Source of the DNA: Gemmatimonadota bacterium
GTDB taxonomy: Bacteria; Gemmatimonadota; Gemmatimonadetes; Longimicrobiales; Gaopeijiaceae
Assembly (NCBI GenBank): GCA_022822425.1
Contig: JAJEBS010000247.1
Coordinates: 16,209 to 80,208 of the forward strand
Direction of reading: 5' to 3'
Length of the DNA: 64,000 nt
A program made the translations under genes and the position numbers. Shown here in pieces: positions 28,546-38,865 of the stretch (its first letter is position 1; each line of letters opens with the position of its first letter). The notes below the pieces were generated by a model. The model was not told the origin of the DNA. It searched no databases and was given only the letters and a program-made list of their open reading frames with translations.

Positions 28546-31500
28546 CTAGTGGAAAAATCGTCCTCTGCCCACGAATGCGCCCCCCGGAATCGCTCCCGGT
28601 CTTCCGGCCAGGCCGTCCAGCCAGTCGTTGAGGGAGTCGATGCGGTCGGCGATCACATGGATCACTCCCTGTTCCTTCTCCAGCCGGCCGCGGCAGACCA
28701 TCAGCCGCGCGGTGAGCAGGGCGCGGCGGCAACGTTCCTGGACCGAGGGAAACACCACCAGGTTGGAGGATCCGGTCTCGTCTTCCAGGGTCACGAACAC
28801 GATCCTGCCCGCCGTACCCGGCCGCTGGCGGCACAGCACGATGCCGGCGACGGTGACGCGCGCCCCGGCGGGGACCTCCTCCAGGTGGCTGGCCGGGCAC
28901 ACCCCCCGGTCGGCCAGCCGCTCCCTCAGCAGGGCGGTGGGGTGCTGTTTGAGGGACAGCCCGGTGGAGCGATAATCGGCCACCACCTGCTCGCCGGCGG
29001 ACAGGACGGGCAGGGCGGGTTCAGGGCGGGGCGGCTCCGCCTCCCCGGGCGGATCGAAGAGCGGCAGCGGCTCCACCTGGTCCAGGGAACGGATCGACCA
29101 GGCGGCCTGGCGGCGGTCCAGCCCGGTTGAGGTGAAGGCATCCGCCCTGGCCAGACGCGTCAGAACGGCCGGACTGGTTCCCGCCCGCTGCCGCAGTTCG
29201 GCCGGGGAGCGATACCCTTCCTCCCGGGCCGTCACGATACGGGTGGCATCCTCTTCCCTCAGACCGCGGATCTGACGCAGCCCCAGCCGCAACGCCATGC
29301 GGGGTGGCAGGCGCGGCGGCTCCAGGGTGCAGTCCCACTCCGAGTGGTTGACATCCACCGGGCGCACTTCCACCCCGTGCCTGCGCGCATCGCCCACGAT
29401 CTGGGCAGGCGCGTAGAAGCCCATGGGCTGGCTGTTGAGGAGGGCGCAGGCGAAGACCTCCGGGTAGTGGTGCTTCAGCCACGAGGAGATGTAGACCAGG
29501 AGCGCGAAGCTGGCCGCGTGGCTCTCCGGGAAGCCGTAGTCGCCGAACCCCTCGATCTGCTTGAAGCAGCGCTCGGCGAACTCCAGCTCGTACCCTTTCC
29601 CCACCATCCCATCCACGAATTTGTCGCGGAAGCGATGGATGGTGCCGTAGTTGCGGAAGCTGGCCATGGCCCGGCGCAGCTGGTCGGCCTCGGCCGGGCT
29701 GAACCCGGCCCCGACGATGGCGATCTTCATCGCCTGTTCCTGAAAGAGCGGCACGCCCAGCGTCTTCCCCAGCACCTCGCGCAGATCCTCCGAAGGATAT
29801 TCCACCGGCTCGACGCCCCTGCGCCGGCGCAGGTAGGGGTGGACCATGTCCCCCTGGATAGGTCCCGGACGCACGATCGCCACCTCGATCACCAGATCGT
29901 AGAAGGTGGCCGGCTTCAGCCGGGGGAGCATCGCCATCTGCGCCCGGCTCTCGATCTGGAACACGCCGATCGTGTCCGCCCGCTGGATCATCCGGTAGAC
30001 TCCCGGGTCCTCCGCGGGCACGTCTCCCAGGGTGTGGCGGACGCCGTAGTGCGCTCGCAGCAACTCGAAGGAGCGCCGGATGCAGGAAAGCATGCCGAGC
30101 CCCAGCACATCCACCTTGATGAGCCCCAGCGCCTCGAGATCATCCTTGTTCCACTCGATCACCGTGCGATCCTCCATGGCGGCGTTCTCGATGGGGACGA
30201 TCTCGCACAGCGGCCCGCGGGAAATGACGAACCCGCCCGTGTGCTGGGACAGATGGCGGGGGAAGCCCTGGAGTTCGCGGGCCAGCTCCAGGGTCAGGCG
30301 CAGCCGCCGGTCCTTCGGGTCGAAACCTTCCTCCCGGGCGCGTTCCTCGTCTACCGGCTTCGACCAGACCGAAGCCATGGAGAGCAGCCGGTCGACCGTA
30401 TCCTTGCTCAGTCCCATGGCCTTGCCGGTGTCGCGCAACGCGCTGCGCACGCGGTAGGTCACCACCGTCGCGGCCAGCCCGGCCCGCTCCCGGCCGTACT
30501 TGCGGTAGATGTACTGGATGACCTCCTCGCGGCGCTCGTGCTCGAAGTCCACGTCGATGTCGGGTACTTCGCCCCGTTCTGCGGAGATGAAGCGCTCGAA
30601 CAGCAGGTCGATGCGGTCCGGGTCGACCGATGTGATCTCCAGGCAGTAGCACACCGCCGAGTTGGCGGCCGAGCCACGCCCCTGGCACAGGATGCCCATG
30701 CCGCGGGCGGTCCGGACGATGTCGGCCACGGTCAGGAAATAGGGGGCGAATTCCAGCTCTCCGATGAGCGCCAGCTCGTGTTCCAGCATCGCCCGCACCC
30801 TGGGAGGGATGCCCCCGGGATAGCGCCGGGCCGCGCCCTCCCATGTCAGAATCTCCAGCTCCCGCTGGGGCGTGCGGCCTTCGCCGACCACCTCCTCGGG
30901 GTATTCGTAGCGCAGCTCTCCGAGAGAGAAGCGGCAGCGTTCGGCGATCTCCACTGCATTGGCCAGGGCGCGGGGATGATCGCGGAAGAGCGCGGCCATT
31001 TCCGCGGGGGACTTGAGATGACGCTCGGCGTTGGCCGCCAGGCGCCAGCCGGCGGTGTCGATGGTGCAGCGTTCGCGGATGCAGGTGAGCAGGTCGTGGA
31101 GCCGACGCCGCTCAGGGATGTGCTGGTGCACGTCGCCGGTCGCGACCAGGGGCACGCGCTCCGTCTCCGAGAGGGATGCGAGAGCGGCCAGGCGGCGGAC
31201 GTCGTTGCCCCGGTGGTTGTAGGTGGCGGCCAGGTAGAGAGGTGTGTCCAGCCGCTCCCGGTACCATGCCAGCCGTTCGGCGAAACCGGGACCGGGCACC
31301 TCCGGCGGCAGGGCGACGAAGATCTGCTCTCCGGCCGCTTCCACGACATCCCCGCGCACGAGCCGGCACTCCCCCTTGGGGGCGCGTCTGCGCCCTCGGG
31401 TGATCAGGCGGGCCAGGCGGCCGTAGCCCTTCCTGGAGACGGGCAGGCAGAGCAGGGGTGGTCCGTCCTCGAAGTCGAGGCGGGCGCCGGGAATGAAGCG

Positions 31501-31752
31501 CAGTTCGGTCTGCCGGGCGGCGTGATGGGCGCGCACGACTCCCGCCAGGGTGTTGCGGTCGGTGAGCGCCAGAGCGCGGTAGCCCAGCGCATGCGCCCGC
31601 TCCACCAGTTCCTCGGGCTGGGAGGCGCCGCGCAGGAACGAGAAGTTGCTGGTGACCTGGAGTTCCGCGTAGCCGCCCTCCCGGGCCGCCGAGCTTCCCC
31701 CCACGCGACCGCCGGGGATGCGCGCCGCGGGATCGCCCCCGGCCGCGCTCAC
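28546..31752 (-). CDS. dnaE2: Error-prone DNA polymerase DnaE2 (ImuC)
   Basis: YAELQVTSNFSFLRGASQPEELVERAHALGYRALALTDRNTLAGVVRAH; DVDFEHERREEVIQYIYRKYGRERAGLAATVVTYR; follows imuAB. Confidence 0.95.
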   Translation of the reverse strand: MSAAGGDPAARIPGGRVGGSSAAREGGYAELQVTSNFSFLRGASQPEELVERAHALGYRALALTDRNTLAGVVRAHHAARQTELRFIPGARLDFEDGPPLLCLPVSRKGYGRLARLITRGRRRAPKGECRLVRGDVVEAAGEQIFVALPPEVPGPGFAERLAWYRERLDTPLYLAATYNHRGNDVRRLAALASLSETERVPLVATGDVHQHIPERRRLHDLLTCIRERCTIDTAGWRLAANAERHLKSPAEMAALFRDHPRALANAVEIAERCRFSLGELRYEYPEEVVGEGRTPQRELEILTWEGAARRYPGGIPPRVRAMLEHELALIGELEFAPYFLTVADIVRTARGMGILCQGRGSAANSAVCYCLEITSVDPDRIDLLFERFISAERGEVPDIDVDFEHERREEVIQYIYRKYGRERAGLAATVVTYRVRSALRDTGKAMGLSKDTVDRLLSMASVWSKPVDEERAREEGFDPKDRRLRLTLELARELQGFPRHLSQHTGGFVISRGPLCEIVPIENAAMEDRTVIEWNKDDLEALGLIKVDVLGLGMLSCIRRSFELLRAHYGVRHTLGDVPAEDPGVYRMIQRADTIGVFQIESRAQMAMLPRLKPATFYDLVIEVAIVRPGPIQGDMVHPYLRRRRGVEPVEYPSEDLREVLGKTLGVPLFQEQAMKIAIVGAGFSPAEADQLRRAMASFRNYGTIHRFRDKFVDGMVGKGYELEFAERCFKQIEGFGDYGFPESHAASFALLVYISSWLKHHYPEVFACALLNSQPMGFYAPAQIVGDARRHGVEVRPVDVNHSEWDCTLEPPRLPPRMALRLGLRQIRGLREEDATRIVTAREEGYRSPAELRQRAGTSPAVLTRLARADAFTSTGLDRRQAAWSIRSLDQVEPLPLFDPPGEAEPPRPEPALPVLSAGEQVVADYRSTGLSLKQHPTALLRERLADRGVCPASHLEEVPAGARVTVAGIVLCRQRPGTAGRIVFVTLEDETGSSNLVVFPSVQERCRRALLTARLMVCRGRLEKEQGVIHVIADRIDSLNDWLDGLAGRPGAIPGGAFVGRGRFFH

Positions 31753-33347
31753 GCGAAGAACCCGTGCAGGAACCAGCGCGGCGGAGAACCGGAGCCGTCG
31801 CCGGGGCGTTCACAATAGAGCCAGTAGCGCCGGCCTTCCTCATCTCCGGCCAGGTAGTAGTCGCGGGAAGGGGCGTCCCCCAGCCACCATTCGCACTCCA
31901 GCCGCTCGGGCCCCTCGGTCACGCGCAGCCGGTACCGCCGCCCGCGCCACCGGAAGAAGACCGGCGCGCCCGTTGGCGCCATCCCGCCGGATTCGCGGGC
32001 GACGGCCTCCACCCGTTCCGGGGGAGACAGCAGGCGCACCGGCCGATGCCGTCCTTCCGGCCAGCCCGGGACGGGAACCTGCGGCGCGGCCAGAGGTTCA
32101 CGCAGCTCGACCGCGCTCTCGGGCAGCCAGCTCTGGCGCGGGACCGGACAGGCGACGCTTTCGAACCCGAAGCGGTTCCCCAGCCGGTCGAGGAGGCCGG
32201 CCAGTTCTTCGCGGCCCGTCCCACCCTCTCCTCCGATCCATCCGCCGCAGCCCGCTGCTGCTGCTTCGGCCCGCGCGAACCAGTCCTCCTGCTCCTCCTC
32301 GACGACCTCGACCACTTCGGCGGACAACACCATCTCCTCGATGCCGAAACCCGGGTCGATCCGCTCCAGCTTCCCGGAGAGCAGGTTCATGAGGAGCCTT
32401 GAGCGGCGCAGGGGTCGGCTGGTACCCGCCACCAGAACCGAACGCGCTCCATCCCCTCGATGGCAGACGAGCCGCATGCGCCGCACGCCCTCGCCTGCCC
32501 GGCTCAGGTTCCGGCACAGATCCTCCAGCAGGGCTTCCACCGCCGCGTGGATGGCGTCCACTGTCGAGATCGGCTCCGCAAAGGCACGGCGGGCCTCGCG
32601 CGGAAGCGGAGGCGGAAGAGAGATGACCGGTTCCCGAGCGAAGCCGAGAGCCTGCTCCAGACGGCGGCGCGGGGCAGGGCCGAACCTCTTCGCCAGGGCT
32701 CCGGGGTCGAAGGGATAGAGGGCTCCGATCCTGTCCAGGCCGAAGGAAACCAGTGCCTCCACGACATCGGTATCGAGCCTGAGGGCGGCGACGGGAAGCC
32801 GGGACAGTGCCTCCCTCACCTCGTCCGGACCCGCGGACCGGGGCACGATGGCCGGAGACTCCTCGCCGTGGCGGGCCAGCGCCCAGGCCGCCCCGGGCGT
32901 GCCGGCGAGCGCCAGCCGAGAGGTGAGCCCAAGCCCCCCCAACCCCGCTCCCAGCGCCGCCAGCAGCTCCTCCTCGCCGCCATGGAGATGCGTGCACCCC
33001 CCGACATCGAGGAAGAGCCCGTCCGCGCCGGCCGGCATGACCCGGGGGGTGAAGCCGTCCGCCCACCGGGCCAGCCGCTTCAGCGCATGGGCGTCGGCGG
33101 CGGGATCGGCGGGGTGGGCGATCACGTCGGGCGCGATGGCCCGCCCGTCGGCCAGCGGCATGCCCGGCGCCAGCCCCGCCCCCGCCGCGAGCGGGTTGAC
33201 CGCCTCGATCATCAGCCGCCCCCGCTGCTCGCCGATGGTCACGAAGGGCCGGGTGCGCGCCTCGGGACAGCGCCAGGCCAGCCTCTCCACCGGCCACCAG
33301 GGGAACCAGGCGACAAGGATGCGGCGGGGGGTGAAAAGGACGCTCAT
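31749..33347 (-). CDS. imuB: Y-family polymerase-like protein ImuB
   Basis: 533 aa; LVAWFPWWPVERLAWRCPE, DVGGCTHLHGGEEELLAAL; ATGA overlap with dnaE2. Confidence 0.92.
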   Translation of the reverse strand: MSVLFTPRRILVAWFPWWPVERLAWRCPEARTRPFVTIGEQRGRLMIEAVNPLAAGAGLAPGMPLADGRAIAPDVIAHPADPAADAHALKRLARWADGFTPRVMPAGADGLFLDVGGCTHLHGGEEELLAALGAGLGGLGLTSRLALAGTPGAAWALARHGEESPAIVPRSAGPDEVREALSRLPVAALRLDTDVVEALVSFGLDRIGALYPFDPGALAKRFGPAPRRRLEQALGFAREPVISLPPPLPREARRAFAEPISTVDAIHAAVEALLEDLCRNLSRAGEGVRRMRLVCHRGDGARSVLVAGTSRPLRRSRLLMNLLSGKLERIDPGFGIEEMVLSAEVVEVVEEEQEDWFARAEAAAAGCGGWIGGEGGTGREELAGLLDRLGNRFGFESVACPVPRQSWLPESAVELREPLAAPQVPVPGWPEGRHRPVRLLSPPERVEAVARESGGMAPTGAPVFFRWRGRRYRLRVTEGPERLECEWWLGDAPSRDYYLAGDEEGRRYWLYCERPGDGSGSPPRWFLHGFFA

Positions 33348-33361
33348 GGGTTTCGGCCGGG

Positions 33362-34030
33362 TCAGCCGGCGCGGCGCGCAAGATCGCGGGCAGCCATCCC
33401 CACCACCCAACACCCCGGTCTTCCTCCCCGGCAGTGCACCACTTCCACGCGCCACCGGGTCAGCCCGGTCCCCGGAACGGTGGTGACCCGCCACCGGCTG
33501 TCGGCCGTGGGTACCCTGACCCGGCCCGCTCCTCCTGCCCCGGCTTCAGGCCACAGCACCAGCCCGGGCACGCCCGAGCCTTCGGCGGCCAGCATCAGGC
33601 GCCGGGAGGCCGCCCGGTCGAGAGTGTCCAACTCCGCCACGACCCCCCTCAGGGCCCGGCAGCGCAGCGCCTCCTCCATGGCCCACAGCATGTCGGCCCG
33701 CCGCCGCAGCCTCGAAGCGACCAGCAACCGCCCCGGTTCGATCCCGTATCGGACCAGCCCCGGCAGATAGAGGTCATTCCCGCGCGCCAGCCACAGGAGC
33801 GGCCCGCCGGCACGGGCCAGGAGGACGGCGCAGAAACCGGTCGCGGCTTCGTCCCCGCCGATCTCATGGACGCACCCCGCGCGCAGCCCGCCTCCGGGCA
33901 GGGCGCCATCGATTTCCGGGATGCCCAGCGGCAGGCACGCCGCCCCGGCTTCGCCCGGAATCTCGATCCGGCGGATCTCTTCGCGCAGCGCCTCCAGCGC
34001 TCGCCGCTTCGTCTTCGGCACGTGAGACAT
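33362..34030 (-). CDS. imuA: ImuA-like RecA-fold protein
   Basis: LPLGIPEIDGALPGGGLRAGCVHEIGGDEAATGFCAVLLARAGGPLLWLAR; first gene of the imuA-imuB-dnaE2 cassette. Confidence 0.88.
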   Translation of the reverse strand: MSHVPKTKRRALEALREEIRRIEIPGEAGAACLPLGIPEIDGALPGGGLRAGCVHEIGGDEAATGFCAVLLARAGGPLLWLARGNDLYLPGLVRYGIEPGRLLVASRLRRRADMLWAMEEALRCRALRGVVAELDTLDRAASRRLMLAAEGSGVPGLVLWPEAGAGGAGRVRVPTADSRWRVTTVPGTGLTRWRVEVVHCRGGRPGCWVVGMAARDLARRAG

Positions 34031-34038
34031 GGGCCGAC

Positions 34039-34068
34039 AAGATACCGAAGAAAAACCGTAAGTGTCAA
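34039..34068 (-). promoter_or_regulatory. Sigma-70-like promoter of the imu cassette: TTGACA-N18-TATCTT
   Basis: Reverse strand TTGACActtacggtttttcttcggTATCTTgtcggcccATG; the -10 ends 8 nt before the imuA ATG. Confidence 0.65.
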
Positions 34069-34267
34069 ATGGCGGTTCCTTGCTCTCGAGCGCTCCAAAA
34101 ACATGCAAATGGCGCGAAAAGCAGCATCAACACGACGGAAACGCGGGTCCGAACCATCCCATCCCGGAAAGGGTAGGATGACGTGTGGCAGGGTTCGTTC
34201 TCTTCTTCGCGTAATCGGACTACCGCGGAGGGAACGCCGCCAATCCCATTCTCAGGAGCTTCGGACA

Positions 34268-34952: not shown

Positions 34953-34989
34953 AAACCGCCGGGGACATCCCGACGGCTCGGCGGGTTTT
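34953..34989 (+). terminator. Rho-independent terminator-like structure
   Basis: AAACCGCCG...CGGCGGGTTTT with inner CGGG/CCCG helix, 8 nt after the lipoprotein stop. Confidence 0.7.
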
Positions 34990-35065
34990 CACGTTTCCGC
35001 ATCTGCAGGACGGGCCGACAGGCACCGTCGAGTCCCTTCCGGAGAAGTTCACTCGGGCCTTGCGA

Positions 35066-35125
35066 TGATATATCGGTAATCGATATAATGTTGTCTGATA
35101 TGACGGTGGCCGATATGTTGTCCCC
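35066..35125 (+). promoter_or_regulatory. Array of four 15-bp direct repeats (YGATAT boxes) overlapping a TATATCG-N5-CGATATA dyad
   Basis: GATAT begins at 35067, 35082, 35097 and 35112 (exact 15-bp period); dyad 35069..35087; ends 18 bp before the ATG at 35143. Confidence 0.75.
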
Positions 35126-35142
35126 GGGAGGAGGTTTCGGAA

Positions 35143-37287
35143 ATGCGCAAGCGTTCGCGTTTCATCCGGCCACGCGGCGTCATGCAGCGTCGCTCATCGC
35201 AAGCAGGCATTCCATGGATCGCCGCCTTGCTGACGCTGACTACCAGTTCGTGCGACCCGGCGGGCCGCGATGCCCAACCTGCGCCTGCGCGCGATTCCGC
35301 GGGCGTGACCATCATCGACAACGACGGCCCCGACGAAATGCTTGACATCCGAGCCGTGCGAACGGTCGATCTCGTACCCCCCGACAGCGCGCTTACGGCG
35401 GTTCCGTGGGGTGTGGCCGCGGATCCGATGACAGGCCGGATCTACCTGGCGGACTGGACAGGGGAGAGAGTCGTGGCCTTCGACGCTTCAGGAGCCTATG
35501 CAGGCAGCTACGGACGCTCGGGGGACGGACCCGGAGAGTTTCGCAATCCCGCCGCCGTATCCATGGACCCGTACGGAGCTCTCACGGTGTGGGACACCGG
35601 CCGGCAGATCCTGAATCGCTGGTCGAGCGAGGGCGATCTCCTGAACGAGCAGCGCCCGGAGCTGGCCTACTGGGGTCCGGGATTCGCGATCGGAAGCGAC
35701 TGGCTCGCCACGGTGACGAGCGCCACGTCGTCATCGGGAATGGTCACGGAGCAGCGACTCGTCGTCGAGAGAGGACAAACGACGACGACGCTGCACGAGG
35801 TCCCGATGGAACTGGCGGTCATGGAGTTCGGCGGCGGATCCTTTCCGGGGCCCAGGGTGCTTGCTCCCTCGGTCATCTGGACGCACCGGGGAGACTCCAT
35901 CTTTTTCCTGAACGGGCCGGGCTATCGCATCGACAAGCATGCCGGCGGCTCGGTGGTGTCGAGCATCAGACGGTCCGTGGATCCGATCGACGTTACACGG
36001 GAGATGGCCGTAAGAGGTGCGGAGTTCGGCCCCGGTCCCTATGGAATGTTCATGCGGCGCTTCGGGCTGGAGGCGGAGGATATCGTGGCCGCGGTCGGAT
36101 ACGAGGAGCAGGTCTCGCCGGTGCTGAGTATGGTCGCAGCTCCCGGAGGCCGGCTGTGGGTGACGCGCAGCACCGACGGAATGACGCCCCGCATCGTCGA
36201 CATCCTCGATTCCTCCGGAGGGTACGCGGGCTCGTTCGAGCTGCCCGGGGTTCCCGTTGCGTTCATCTCCGACTCGATCTTCGCGGGTCTCCGCCTGGAG
36301 GAAACCGGAGAGACGATCGTATCGCTCTACCGTCTGGCCGATGCGGACTCCAGTCGGGAGCCGGCGGACTCCGGTCGGGAGCTGGCGACGGAGAGCGGTG
36401 CGGCCGTGAACCCGCCGGTTCCGACATCGGCCGGATTTCACGAGTTCCGCGACTGCCCGGAATGCCCCCTGATGGTCGAACTGCCTCCAGGCGAGTTCGT
36501 GATGGGACGAGGCGCGCACGAGCAGCCGGATCCCGGAAACCCGCCGCCACCCGAGTGGCTGGTGGAGGCGCAGAACCCGCCCACCGAGGTGCGGATCGCT
36601 TACTCCTTCGCCATCGGCAAGTACGAGGTGACGTTCGGGGAATGGGACCTCTGCGTCGACGCCGGAGGGTGCACGTATGTGCCCGGCGACAACGGCTGGG
36701 GACGCGGCGACCGGCCGGTGATCAACCTCGCCCGTCCCGATGTCGACCAGTACGTCACATGGATCGGCGAGCGCACGGGCCGGGCCTACCGCCTGCCCAG
36801 CGAGGCGGAGTGGGAATACGCCGCGCGAGGCGGCACGACGACAACCCGCTACTGGGGGGACGGGCCCGGCGCCGGCATGCTCACCTGTGAAGGCTGCCCG
36901 GGCCGCCGATGGGAACTCAGGAACACAACTCCCGCAGGGTCGTTCCCGGCCAACCCGTTCGGACTCCACGACACAATCGGGAACGTGACGGAATGGGTTG
37001 CCGATTGCTGGAATGCCACTCACGCCGGTAATCCCGGCGACGGCTCCGCGAGGATAGAAGAATCTCCATGGTGGCAGGACGGCGGTTGCATACGGCCTGT
37101 CAAGCGAGGCAGCAGCTGGTCATCCTACTCGTGGTCGGTAACGGCCGCCTACCGCCGCTACCATTGGCCGGGCCCGTGGAACGACCGGGAAACCATGACC
37201 GGCTTCCGACTGGTTCGACCCATCGCATCGGACCCGGCGGACGGTCCAGCACTCGACGCGCACTCACGGAGGCAAGATCAGCCATGA
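35143..37287 (+). CDS. 6-bladed beta-propeller fused to a SUMF1/formylglycine-generating-enzyme-fold domain
   Basis: N-half RDSAGVTIIDNDG...GRSGDGPGEFRNPAAVSMDP; C-half FVMGRGAHEQP...YSFAIGKYEVTFGEWDLC...RLPSEAEWEYAARGG...NPFGLHDTIGNVTEWVADCW...RGSSWSSYSWS...TGFRLVR. Confidence 0.88.
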   Translation: MRKRSRFIRPRGVMQRRSSQAGIPWIAALLTLTTSSCDPAGRDAQPAPARDSAGVTIIDNDGPDEMLDIRAVRTVDLVPPDSALTAVPWGVAADPMTGRIYLADWTGERVVAFDASGAYAGSYGRSGDGPGEFRNPAAVSMDPYGALTVWDTGRQILNRWSSEGDLLNEQRPELAYWGPGFAIGSDWLATVTSATSSSGMVTEQRLVVERGQTTTTLHEVPMELAVMEFGGGSFPGPRVLAPSVIWTHRGDSIFFLNGPGYRIDKHAGGSVVSSIRRSVDPIDVTREMAVRGAEFGPGPYGMFMRRFGLEAEDIVAAVGYEEQVSPVLSMVAAPGGRLWVTRSTDGMTPRIVDILDSSGGYAGSFELPGVPVAFISDSIFAGLRLEETGETIVSLYRLADADSSREPADSGRELATESGAAVNPPVPTSAGFHEFRDCPECPLMVELPPGEFVMGRGAHEQPDPGNPPPPEWLVEAQNPPTEVRIAYSFAIGKYEVTFGEWDLCVDAGGCTYVPGDNGWGRGDRPVINLARPDVDQYVTWIGERTGRAYRLPSEAEWEYAARGGTTTTRYWGDGPGAGMLTCEGCPGRRWELRNTTPAGSFPANPFGLHDTIGNVTEWVADCWNATHAGNPGDGSARIEESPWWQDGGCIRPVKRGSSWSSYSWSVTAAYRRYHWPGPWNDRETMTGFRLVRPIASDPADGPALDAHSRRQDQP

Positions 37288-37655
37288 GCGAAACACACCC
37301 CACCGGCGACCAGGAATTCGACGCGCAGGGCTTCGCCCGGGGAATCCACGAGCTGCTGGTCCTCGCCGCGCTGCGGGAGAGCCCCAGGCACGGCTACCAG
37401 ATCGCCCTGGACGTGGAGGCGCACAGCAACGGGGTCTTCCGGTTCCGGCACGGCACCCTGTATCCGATCCTGCACCGGATGGAGGGGAACGGGCTCATCC
37501 AGGGCCGCTGGTCGAGCGGGGGCGGGCGGAGGAGGAAGGTATATTCGCTCACCGACATCGGCCGCAGGCACCTCAGCGGAGAAACGGACCGGGTTCAGGA
37601 GATCCTGTCCGGGCTCATGCGGATGCTTCGCCGCGCGCGGGAGCTCCCGGCGTGA
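37284..37655 (+). CDS. PadR-family transcriptional regulator
   Basis: LLVLAALRESPRHGYQIALDVEAHSNGVFRFRHGTLYPILHRMEGNGLIQGRW...RRRKVYSLTDIGRRHL; ATGA overlap with the preceding gene. Confidence 0.93.
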   Translation: MSETHPTGDQEFDAQGFARGIHELLVLAALRESPRHGYQIALDVEAHSNGVFRFRHGTLYPILHRMEGNGLIQGRWSSGGGRRRKVYSLTDIGRRHLSGETDRVQEILSGLMRMLRRARELPA

Positions 37656-38467
37656 GTGCGTTCCAGCCGACGCTTCGCAGGTTGGACCGCGATCTGACGG
37701 TTCCCATTCCGGACCGCCTCAGGATCCTGCGCGAGCTCGAGTACGACCTCGAGGCGCTCTCCGGCGAACTCGAAGCCCGGGGTACGCCCCAGGACGAAGC
37801 CCGCGCCCGTGCGCTGGACGCCCTCGTACCGGATGGGGCGACGCTCCGCGAACTCGACCGCCTCCACGCCTCCCACTACCGCCGGCTCACCCGCCACTTC
37901 AGCCCCGGCCGCCTGCGAACCATCGAGCGGTCGGCGCTGGCCCTAGCCACCGCGGTTGTGCTCTTCGCGGAGACCTTCCTGCTCCTGCGGGCCGACTGGC
38001 TCCGCCATGCATCGCCCTTCCTGTGGCCGGTTCTCGGGCTGGGCACACTCCTTTTCGCAGCCATCGCCACGCTTTCGTTCAGGCTGTGGGTCAAGCGCGA
38101 CCACCAGGATCCGGCCGCGAACCTCCGCGTCATCCTGTTCCTGTCCGGCCTGACGCTCGCCACCGGCATCTTCGGCGCCCTTGCCGACCTCCTGCGGCTC
38201 GCGGGGGTTCTGGAGGCCGAGCCCGGACTGGCCGGATCGCTCCTGCTCGAATGGCTGCCCGCGAGCAGCGTCCTGCTCTCGTTCTCACTGCTCCTGGCCC
38301 TCGCCGGAGGGCTGGCCTGGTTCATTCCGGCACACTGGCTCGCACTTGTTTCCGGCGCGCACGCCGAGCTGCTGGGCCATCCCATGCCGGACGCTCGCCC
38401 CGGGGCGCCGCGGTCACTCGACCCTGCGCGTCCACACCAACCCGCATCCCTGGGAGAATCATCATGA
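37652..38467 (+). CDS. Membrane protein with N-terminal permease-prefix-like region
   Basis: N-terminal helical LRRLDRDLTVPIPDRLRILRELEYDLEALSGELEARGTPQDEARARALDALVP, then several TM segments; overlaps the padR stop. Confidence 0.7.
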   Translation: MSAFQPTLRRLDRDLTVPIPDRLRILRELEYDLEALSGELEARGTPQDEARARALDALVPDGATLRELDRLHASHYRRLTRHFSPGRLRTIERSALALATAVVLFAETFLLLRADWLRHASPFLWPVLGLGTLLFAAIATLSFRLWVKRDHQDPAANLRVILFLSGLTLATGIFGALADLLRLAGVLEAEPGLAGSLLLEWLPASSVLLSFSLLLALAGGLAWFIPAHWLALVSGAHAELLGHPMPDARPGAPRSLDPARPHQPASLGESS

Positions 38468-38865
38468 CCGCGATGGAAGCCTTCGAAGCCCTCGGCGTCA
38501 TCCGCTGGCCACTCACCTTCTCGCTGCTGGTGGTCGTCGCCCTGGCGCTGTGGTCGCTCGCGCTGGTGTGGCACAGTGCCATGCCGGGCCGGCACGCCAA
38601 GGCCTGGATCGACGCCATCCTGTTCTGGGGAGGGTTCGCGGCCATCAGCGGCGTGCTGGGCACACTGGTCGGCATCATCATCACCTTCCAGTTCATCGAG
38701 TTGGCCGGCGAGGTCGTGGCGACGCTGGTGGCGGGAGGCATCAAGGTCGCGCTCCTCAGTTCGGCGCTCGGCACCCTGATCCTGGCCGTCGCTTCCCTGC
38801 TCTGGTTTGGACTGCAACTGCGCTGGCGCTTCCTGGTCGCGGAACACGCGGGCGGTCCGGCGTAG
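38464..38865 (+). CDS. Minimal MotA/TolQ/ExbB-like membrane protein (134 aa)
   Basis: GVLGTLVGIIITFQFIELAGEVVATLVAGGIKVALLSSALGTLILAVASLLW matches the core of the 18901..19605 protein; ATGA overlap at 38464. Confidence 0.8.
   Translation: MTAMEAFEALGVIRWPLTFSLLVVVALALWSLALVWHSAMPGRHAKAWIDAILFWGGFAAISGVLGTLVGIIITFQFIELAGEVVATLVAGGIKVALLSSALGTLILAVASLLWFGLQLRWRFLVAEHAGGPA

Follow-up and report, generated by a model that had tools for sequence, protein, structure and literature searches.

PadR-family regulators have a published operator of the form ATGT-N8-10-ACAT (PMC3506622; PMC5428041), and their operators have also been described as degenerate (PMC3506622). Autorepression is known in this family, for example in LmrR, where several dimers per promoter have been reported for lmrR (PMC4534193). 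Furthermore, HAAS-PadR pairs have been proposed to serve as membrane-signal switches (PMC11237479).

The 64,000-nucleotide stretch of Gemmatimonadota DNA analysed here (the window) carries an array of AT-rich boxes ahead of an operon that encodes a PadR regulator. As in LmrR (Lactococcus lactis; PMC4534193, PMC5428041) and bcPadR1 (Bacillus cereus; PMC3506622), the half-sites are AT-rich and inverted with a spacer of about 8-10 bp, here ATAT-N9-ATAT inside TATATCG-N5-CGATATA, and the site falls within the promoter region of the operon that encodes the regulator, as it does in relatives. However, the half-site is CGATAT in place of the classical ATGT/ACAT, up to four near-palindromic boxes follow one another at an exact 15-bp period, and adjacent dyads have a box in common. 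Autoregulatory operators as such are known for PadR, and the multi-box 15-bp array with a CGATAT half-site is a clade-specific variant; no prior description of such an array was found in the literature, and searches on PadR in Gemmatimonadetes or on PadR direct-repeat operators returned nothing relevant. With a probability of roughly 0.88, we take the array to be the operator at which the operon's PadR regulates itself; PadR bound there would block the promoter and exert negative feedback.

The operon lies on the plus strand and opens with an ORF at 35143, 17 nt beyond position 35125. The first-pass annotation had placed the array before a PadR operon, which is correct, with the amendment that PadR is the second gene there and the first ORF encodes a propeller/FGE protein. 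This first gene (35143..37287) specifies 714 amino acids, secreted or lipoprotein-like, with a 6-bladed beta-propeller (its DUF5128 match is weak) and an FGE-sulfatase domain. The PadR gene (37284..37655), joined to it by an ATGA overlap, encodes 123 amino acids that score 89.8 bits for PF03551 (Pfam gathering cut-off 27), which places the protein in the PadR family, and the recognition-helix region reads RHGTLYPILHR. The best NCBIfam match of this regulator is TIGR03433 padR_acidobact (4.6e-25, 87.7 bits), although the score is below the family cut-off of 101.8 bits and the protein comes from Gemmatimonadota. A 271-aa membrane protein (37652..38467) with a weakly HAAS/permease-prefix-like N-terminus and a MotA/TolQ/ExbB-like membrane protein (38416..38865, start codon uncertain) follow. 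The PadR and membrane-protein genes overlap by 4 nt in this genome and in most relatives examined, and the trio of PadR, HAAS/permease-prefix-like membrane protein and ExbB-like protein (membrane genes at 37652-38865) has been kept together in many genera of the family.

This arrangement resembles HAAS-PadR systems (PMC11237479) in that a standalone PadR stands beside a transmembrane protein with a HAAS/permease-prefix-like helical N-terminus. It differs from them in that this N-terminal domain passes neither the HAAS nor the permease-prefix cut-off, and in that the pair is preceded by a propeller/FGE gene and followed by an ExbB-like one. The 271-aa protein itself gives no HAAS match and a weak one to perm_prefix_1 (0.073); for the membrane proteins of relatives the matches go up to 1e-5 (perm_prefix_1) and 0.036 (HAAS PF22564), none of them passing the cut-off. 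PspC, Toastrack and LiaF domains were not found in the proteins scanned. In another genome, G002 (L041 610-3603), a 997-aa ORF stands in first place where the operon described here has 714 aa, and a repeated FGE-like stretch seems likely. Elsewhere in the window, three adjacent minus-strand ORFs at 28546-34108 resemble, from their translations, an error-prone polymerase cassette of DnaE2-type polymerase, Y-family ImuB-like and ImuA-like proteins.

Four boxes in a 15-bp frame

The four boxes at exact 15-bp spacing described in the first-pass annotation are present on the plus strand, with YGATAT starts at 35066, 35081, 35096 and 35111, and their AT-rich character in GC-rich DNA is borne out by a GC content of 38% over 35066-35120 against 68% for the window. 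The period stands as proposed, whereas the conserved unit is longer than YGATAT: alignment of 11 genus arrays on box 1 gave a 10-mer that is nearly palindromic, YGATATRWYG (about CGATATATCG), followed by a spacer of 5 bp. The boxes read TGATATATCG (35066..35075), CGATATAATG (35081..35090), TGATATGACG (35096..35105) and CGATATGTTG (35111..35120). Since CGATATATCG is palindromic and repeats every 15 bp, TATATCG-N5-CGATATA dyads arise between successive boxes. The dyad already noticed in the first two boxes, TATATCG-GTAAT-CGATATA at 35069..35087 (strandless), is the only perfect one and the best candidate site for one PadR dimer; the dyads of boxes 2-3 and 3-4 are imperfect. The palindromic character of the boxes and their overlap with a promoter, discussed below, are additions to the earlier description.

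Lone YGATAT boxes occur at chance level (14 in the window versus 13.9 expected), so it is the phasing that constitutes the signal. The pair YGATAT-N9-YGATAT occurs three times in the window, always inside the array, versus 0.00 expected from shuffles. The whole-genome motif scan that had been suggested was run as a pattern search of the 4.4-Mb assembly and found no such pair outside the array, and the reversed control pattern gave 0 matches in the same genome.

Conservation within the genus follows the boxes. Across 8 close genus copies the box columns are 97-100% conserved, compared with 70-95% for the spacers, about 61% for upstream DNA and 69% for downstream DNA. A diverged copy (G004/G010) keeps the four-box 15-bp frame with altered letters, such as CAATATATCG and CGAAATATCG in the G004 operon. 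The genome also holds a paralogous propeller/FGE-PadR-membrane operon (G000:C98:13550-17600, L045) with an 87% identical PadR, and there too four boxes stand in a 15-bp frame in degenerate form (CATACTATCG, CGCTATATTG and so on), with CGnTAT where the array has CGATAT. A coding role of the array was rejected, as the distance from array to ATG differs by a base among relatives.

Linkage to one type of recognition helix

Boxes with the same spacing are found upstream of PadR relatives (about 50-70% identity) from other genera of the phylum, usually with PadR leading its operon, and the period recurs there with different spacer sequences. For example, one genome (G057) reads CGATATAAAG-ACTGT-CGATATTTAG-AGTGG-CGATAC, and g63, a genus further removed, has its second box inverted yet still at 15 bp (CGATATAAAG-ATGAT-CTTTATATCA). 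Of 34 regions ahead of related PadR genes or operons, 19 hold half-site boxes 15 bp apart, while 300 shuffles of these regions averaged 0.15 and never exceeded 2; for other box distances the counts were 0 at 14 or 16 bp, 9 at 30 bp and 7 at 45 bp. The strict pair is missing from 15 of the 34 clade relatives, several of which show degenerate versions by eye. The footprinting check proposed earlier returned same-period arrays upstream of the orthologous genus operon and of related PadR genes elsewhere, and the lack of conservation that the first-pass annotation had named as a refutation was not observed.

The pair is absent upstream of PadR genes with a different recognition helix (0/21; Fisher p = 7e-6), a comparison set of 20 genes from related genomes lacking HGTLYPILHR and the third PadR of the genome itself, one of the 21 having only 87 bases of upstream sequence. 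The helices of the 20 are mostly DGMLYPVLHR or GSLYPALHR. Loci of one genus are related and not independent; collapsed by hand to genera, the pair is found in 13/17 versus 0/16 with another helix (Fisher p = 4e-6), with motif words and dyad degeneracy picked after some of the same sequences had been viewed.

In 150 genomes the two-box pattern alone gave many apparent chance matches outside the PadR clade, and the dyad is therefore the more specific form. A looser search for three YGATA boxes at 15 bp was discarded, as most of its matches outside the genus had no nearby PadR and it gained only G057 and G073. The degenerate dyad TATATMG-N5-CKATATA has 24 exact sites in the 150 genomes, 19 of them upstream of a PadR gene or PadR operon, and its reversed control has 0. 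G036 has the operator ahead of a propeller-type gene, with PadR following that gene, and a further box pair ahead of another propeller-like ORF (both propellers judged by eye). Of the dyads outside the 19, one sits immediately 3' of a PadR gene and faces the gene that follows (G040 C4), and one is next to a propeller gene on a short contig end (G013); one in G125 (C83), identical in sequence to that on C82, was left out of the neighbourhood inspection. Dyads of identical sequence in G126 and G135 precede higB-like genes, the call for G126 being based on site identity and on there being no PadR. Dyads resembling the PadR operator were seen before higB-like toxin-antitoxin pairs at L153 (1500-1520) and at L172 and L173 (near 1501). 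A dyad with 2 mismatches before a higB-like gene in the genome studied here (C78:6711) was judged unrelated.

Pattern searches of this genome found no further array and no further exact dyad, so the local operon, perhaps together with the C98 paralogue, appears to be the main target of its PadR.

Promoter overlap and alternative readings

A consensus scan found a sigma-70-like promoter, TTGCGA-N18-TATAAT (35060-35089), overlapping boxes 1-2 (1 found versus 0.1 expected). The putative -35 element TTGCGA (35060..35065, plus strand) is identical in 8/8 close genus loci, and the putative -10 element TATAAT (35084..35089, plus strand) lies within box 2. Several PadR relatives from other genera similarly have, by eye, a TATATA/TATAAA -10-like word in a box, 17-18 bp after TTGCGG. 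A ribosome-binding-site-like GGGAGGAGG follows on the plus strand at 35126..35134, and other genus loci have one too. Upstream, a hairpin followed by TTTT at 34953-34990, after the preceding gene, looks terminator-like by eye; the terminator scan was negative and the hairpin folds no better than shuffles (z = -1).

This overlap raises the alternative that the boxes are mere promoter elements (-35, -10, AT-rich flanks, perhaps a duplicated promoter), kept for the sake of RNA polymerase with no role for PadR, and a second weak match, TTGTCT-N17-TATGTT, can indeed be read over boxes 3-4 (35091-35119) in addition to TTGCGA-N18-TATAAT over boxes 1-2. We regard this as improbable: the pattern is unique in the genome and hence not that of a general promoter, neither the 15-bp period nor the boxes' CG flanks belong to promoter architecture, and the dyads are linked to PadR genes while the period is absent before PadR genes with another helix. 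Marginally less probable again is that a different regulator happens to control the operon through the array, an idea that draws on the similar dyads ahead of two higB-like genes (L172, L173) and on the fact that we infer binding by PadR itself. However, the association tracks the recognition-helix clade of PadR over many genera, also in relatives that have PadR as first gene and another gene before it, and the exceptions are few. A functionless neutral duplication of about 28-30 bp, suggested by the resemblance of boxes 1-2 to boxes 3-4 (TGATATnnCGGT...CGATAT(aa)(t)GTTGTC), is contradicted by box conservation far above that of flanks and spacers and by the recurrence of the period in other genera with different spacer sequences, and can be set aside with near certainty. 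The operator reading of the first-pass annotation is supported by the footprinting, by the linkage of dyads to PadR and by their absence before PadR genes with another helix, and it very probably describes the array correctly.

Proposed autoregulation

Under the PadR operator reading, PadR dimers would bind the TATATCG-N5-CGATATA dyads that arise where one near-palindromic box follows another at the 15-bp period. Because the -10 region and the DNA around it lie under the array, bound PadR would block RNA polymerase, resulting in negative feedback on the operon of propeller/FGE protein, PadR, HAAS-like membrane protein and ExbB-like protein. We infer that PadR dimers cover the promoter from the fit of the operator spacing, from known PadR autorepression and from the multi-dimer promoter of LmrR, and repression, cooperativity and the inducing signal are proposed at the same level. 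Four boxes would provide up to three overlapping dyads, which may allow cooperative binding of several dimers; from one dyad centre to the next is a step of 15 bp (about 1.4 turns), which would put neighbouring dimers on different faces of the helix. The 271-aa membrane protein is a likely partner for lifting repression on an envelope signal and the best inducer-arm candidate, because HAAS-PadR pairs have been proposed as membrane-signal switches (PMC11237479). A more tentative extension, which we consider possible though rather doubtful, is that a cooperative PadR lattice on shared boxes, released by the HAAS-like/ExbB-like complex, forms a clade-wide envelope-sensing switch, with a sharpness that depends on how many boxes there are. 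If so, this would be a Gemmatimonadota switch with neighbouring dimers on different helix faces.

To summarize, the array provides a concrete operator motif for a PadR clade in an uncultured branch of the Gemmatimonadota. The motif is tied to one type of recognition helix, predicts the operons of the regulon, and links PadR to a conserved membrane module.
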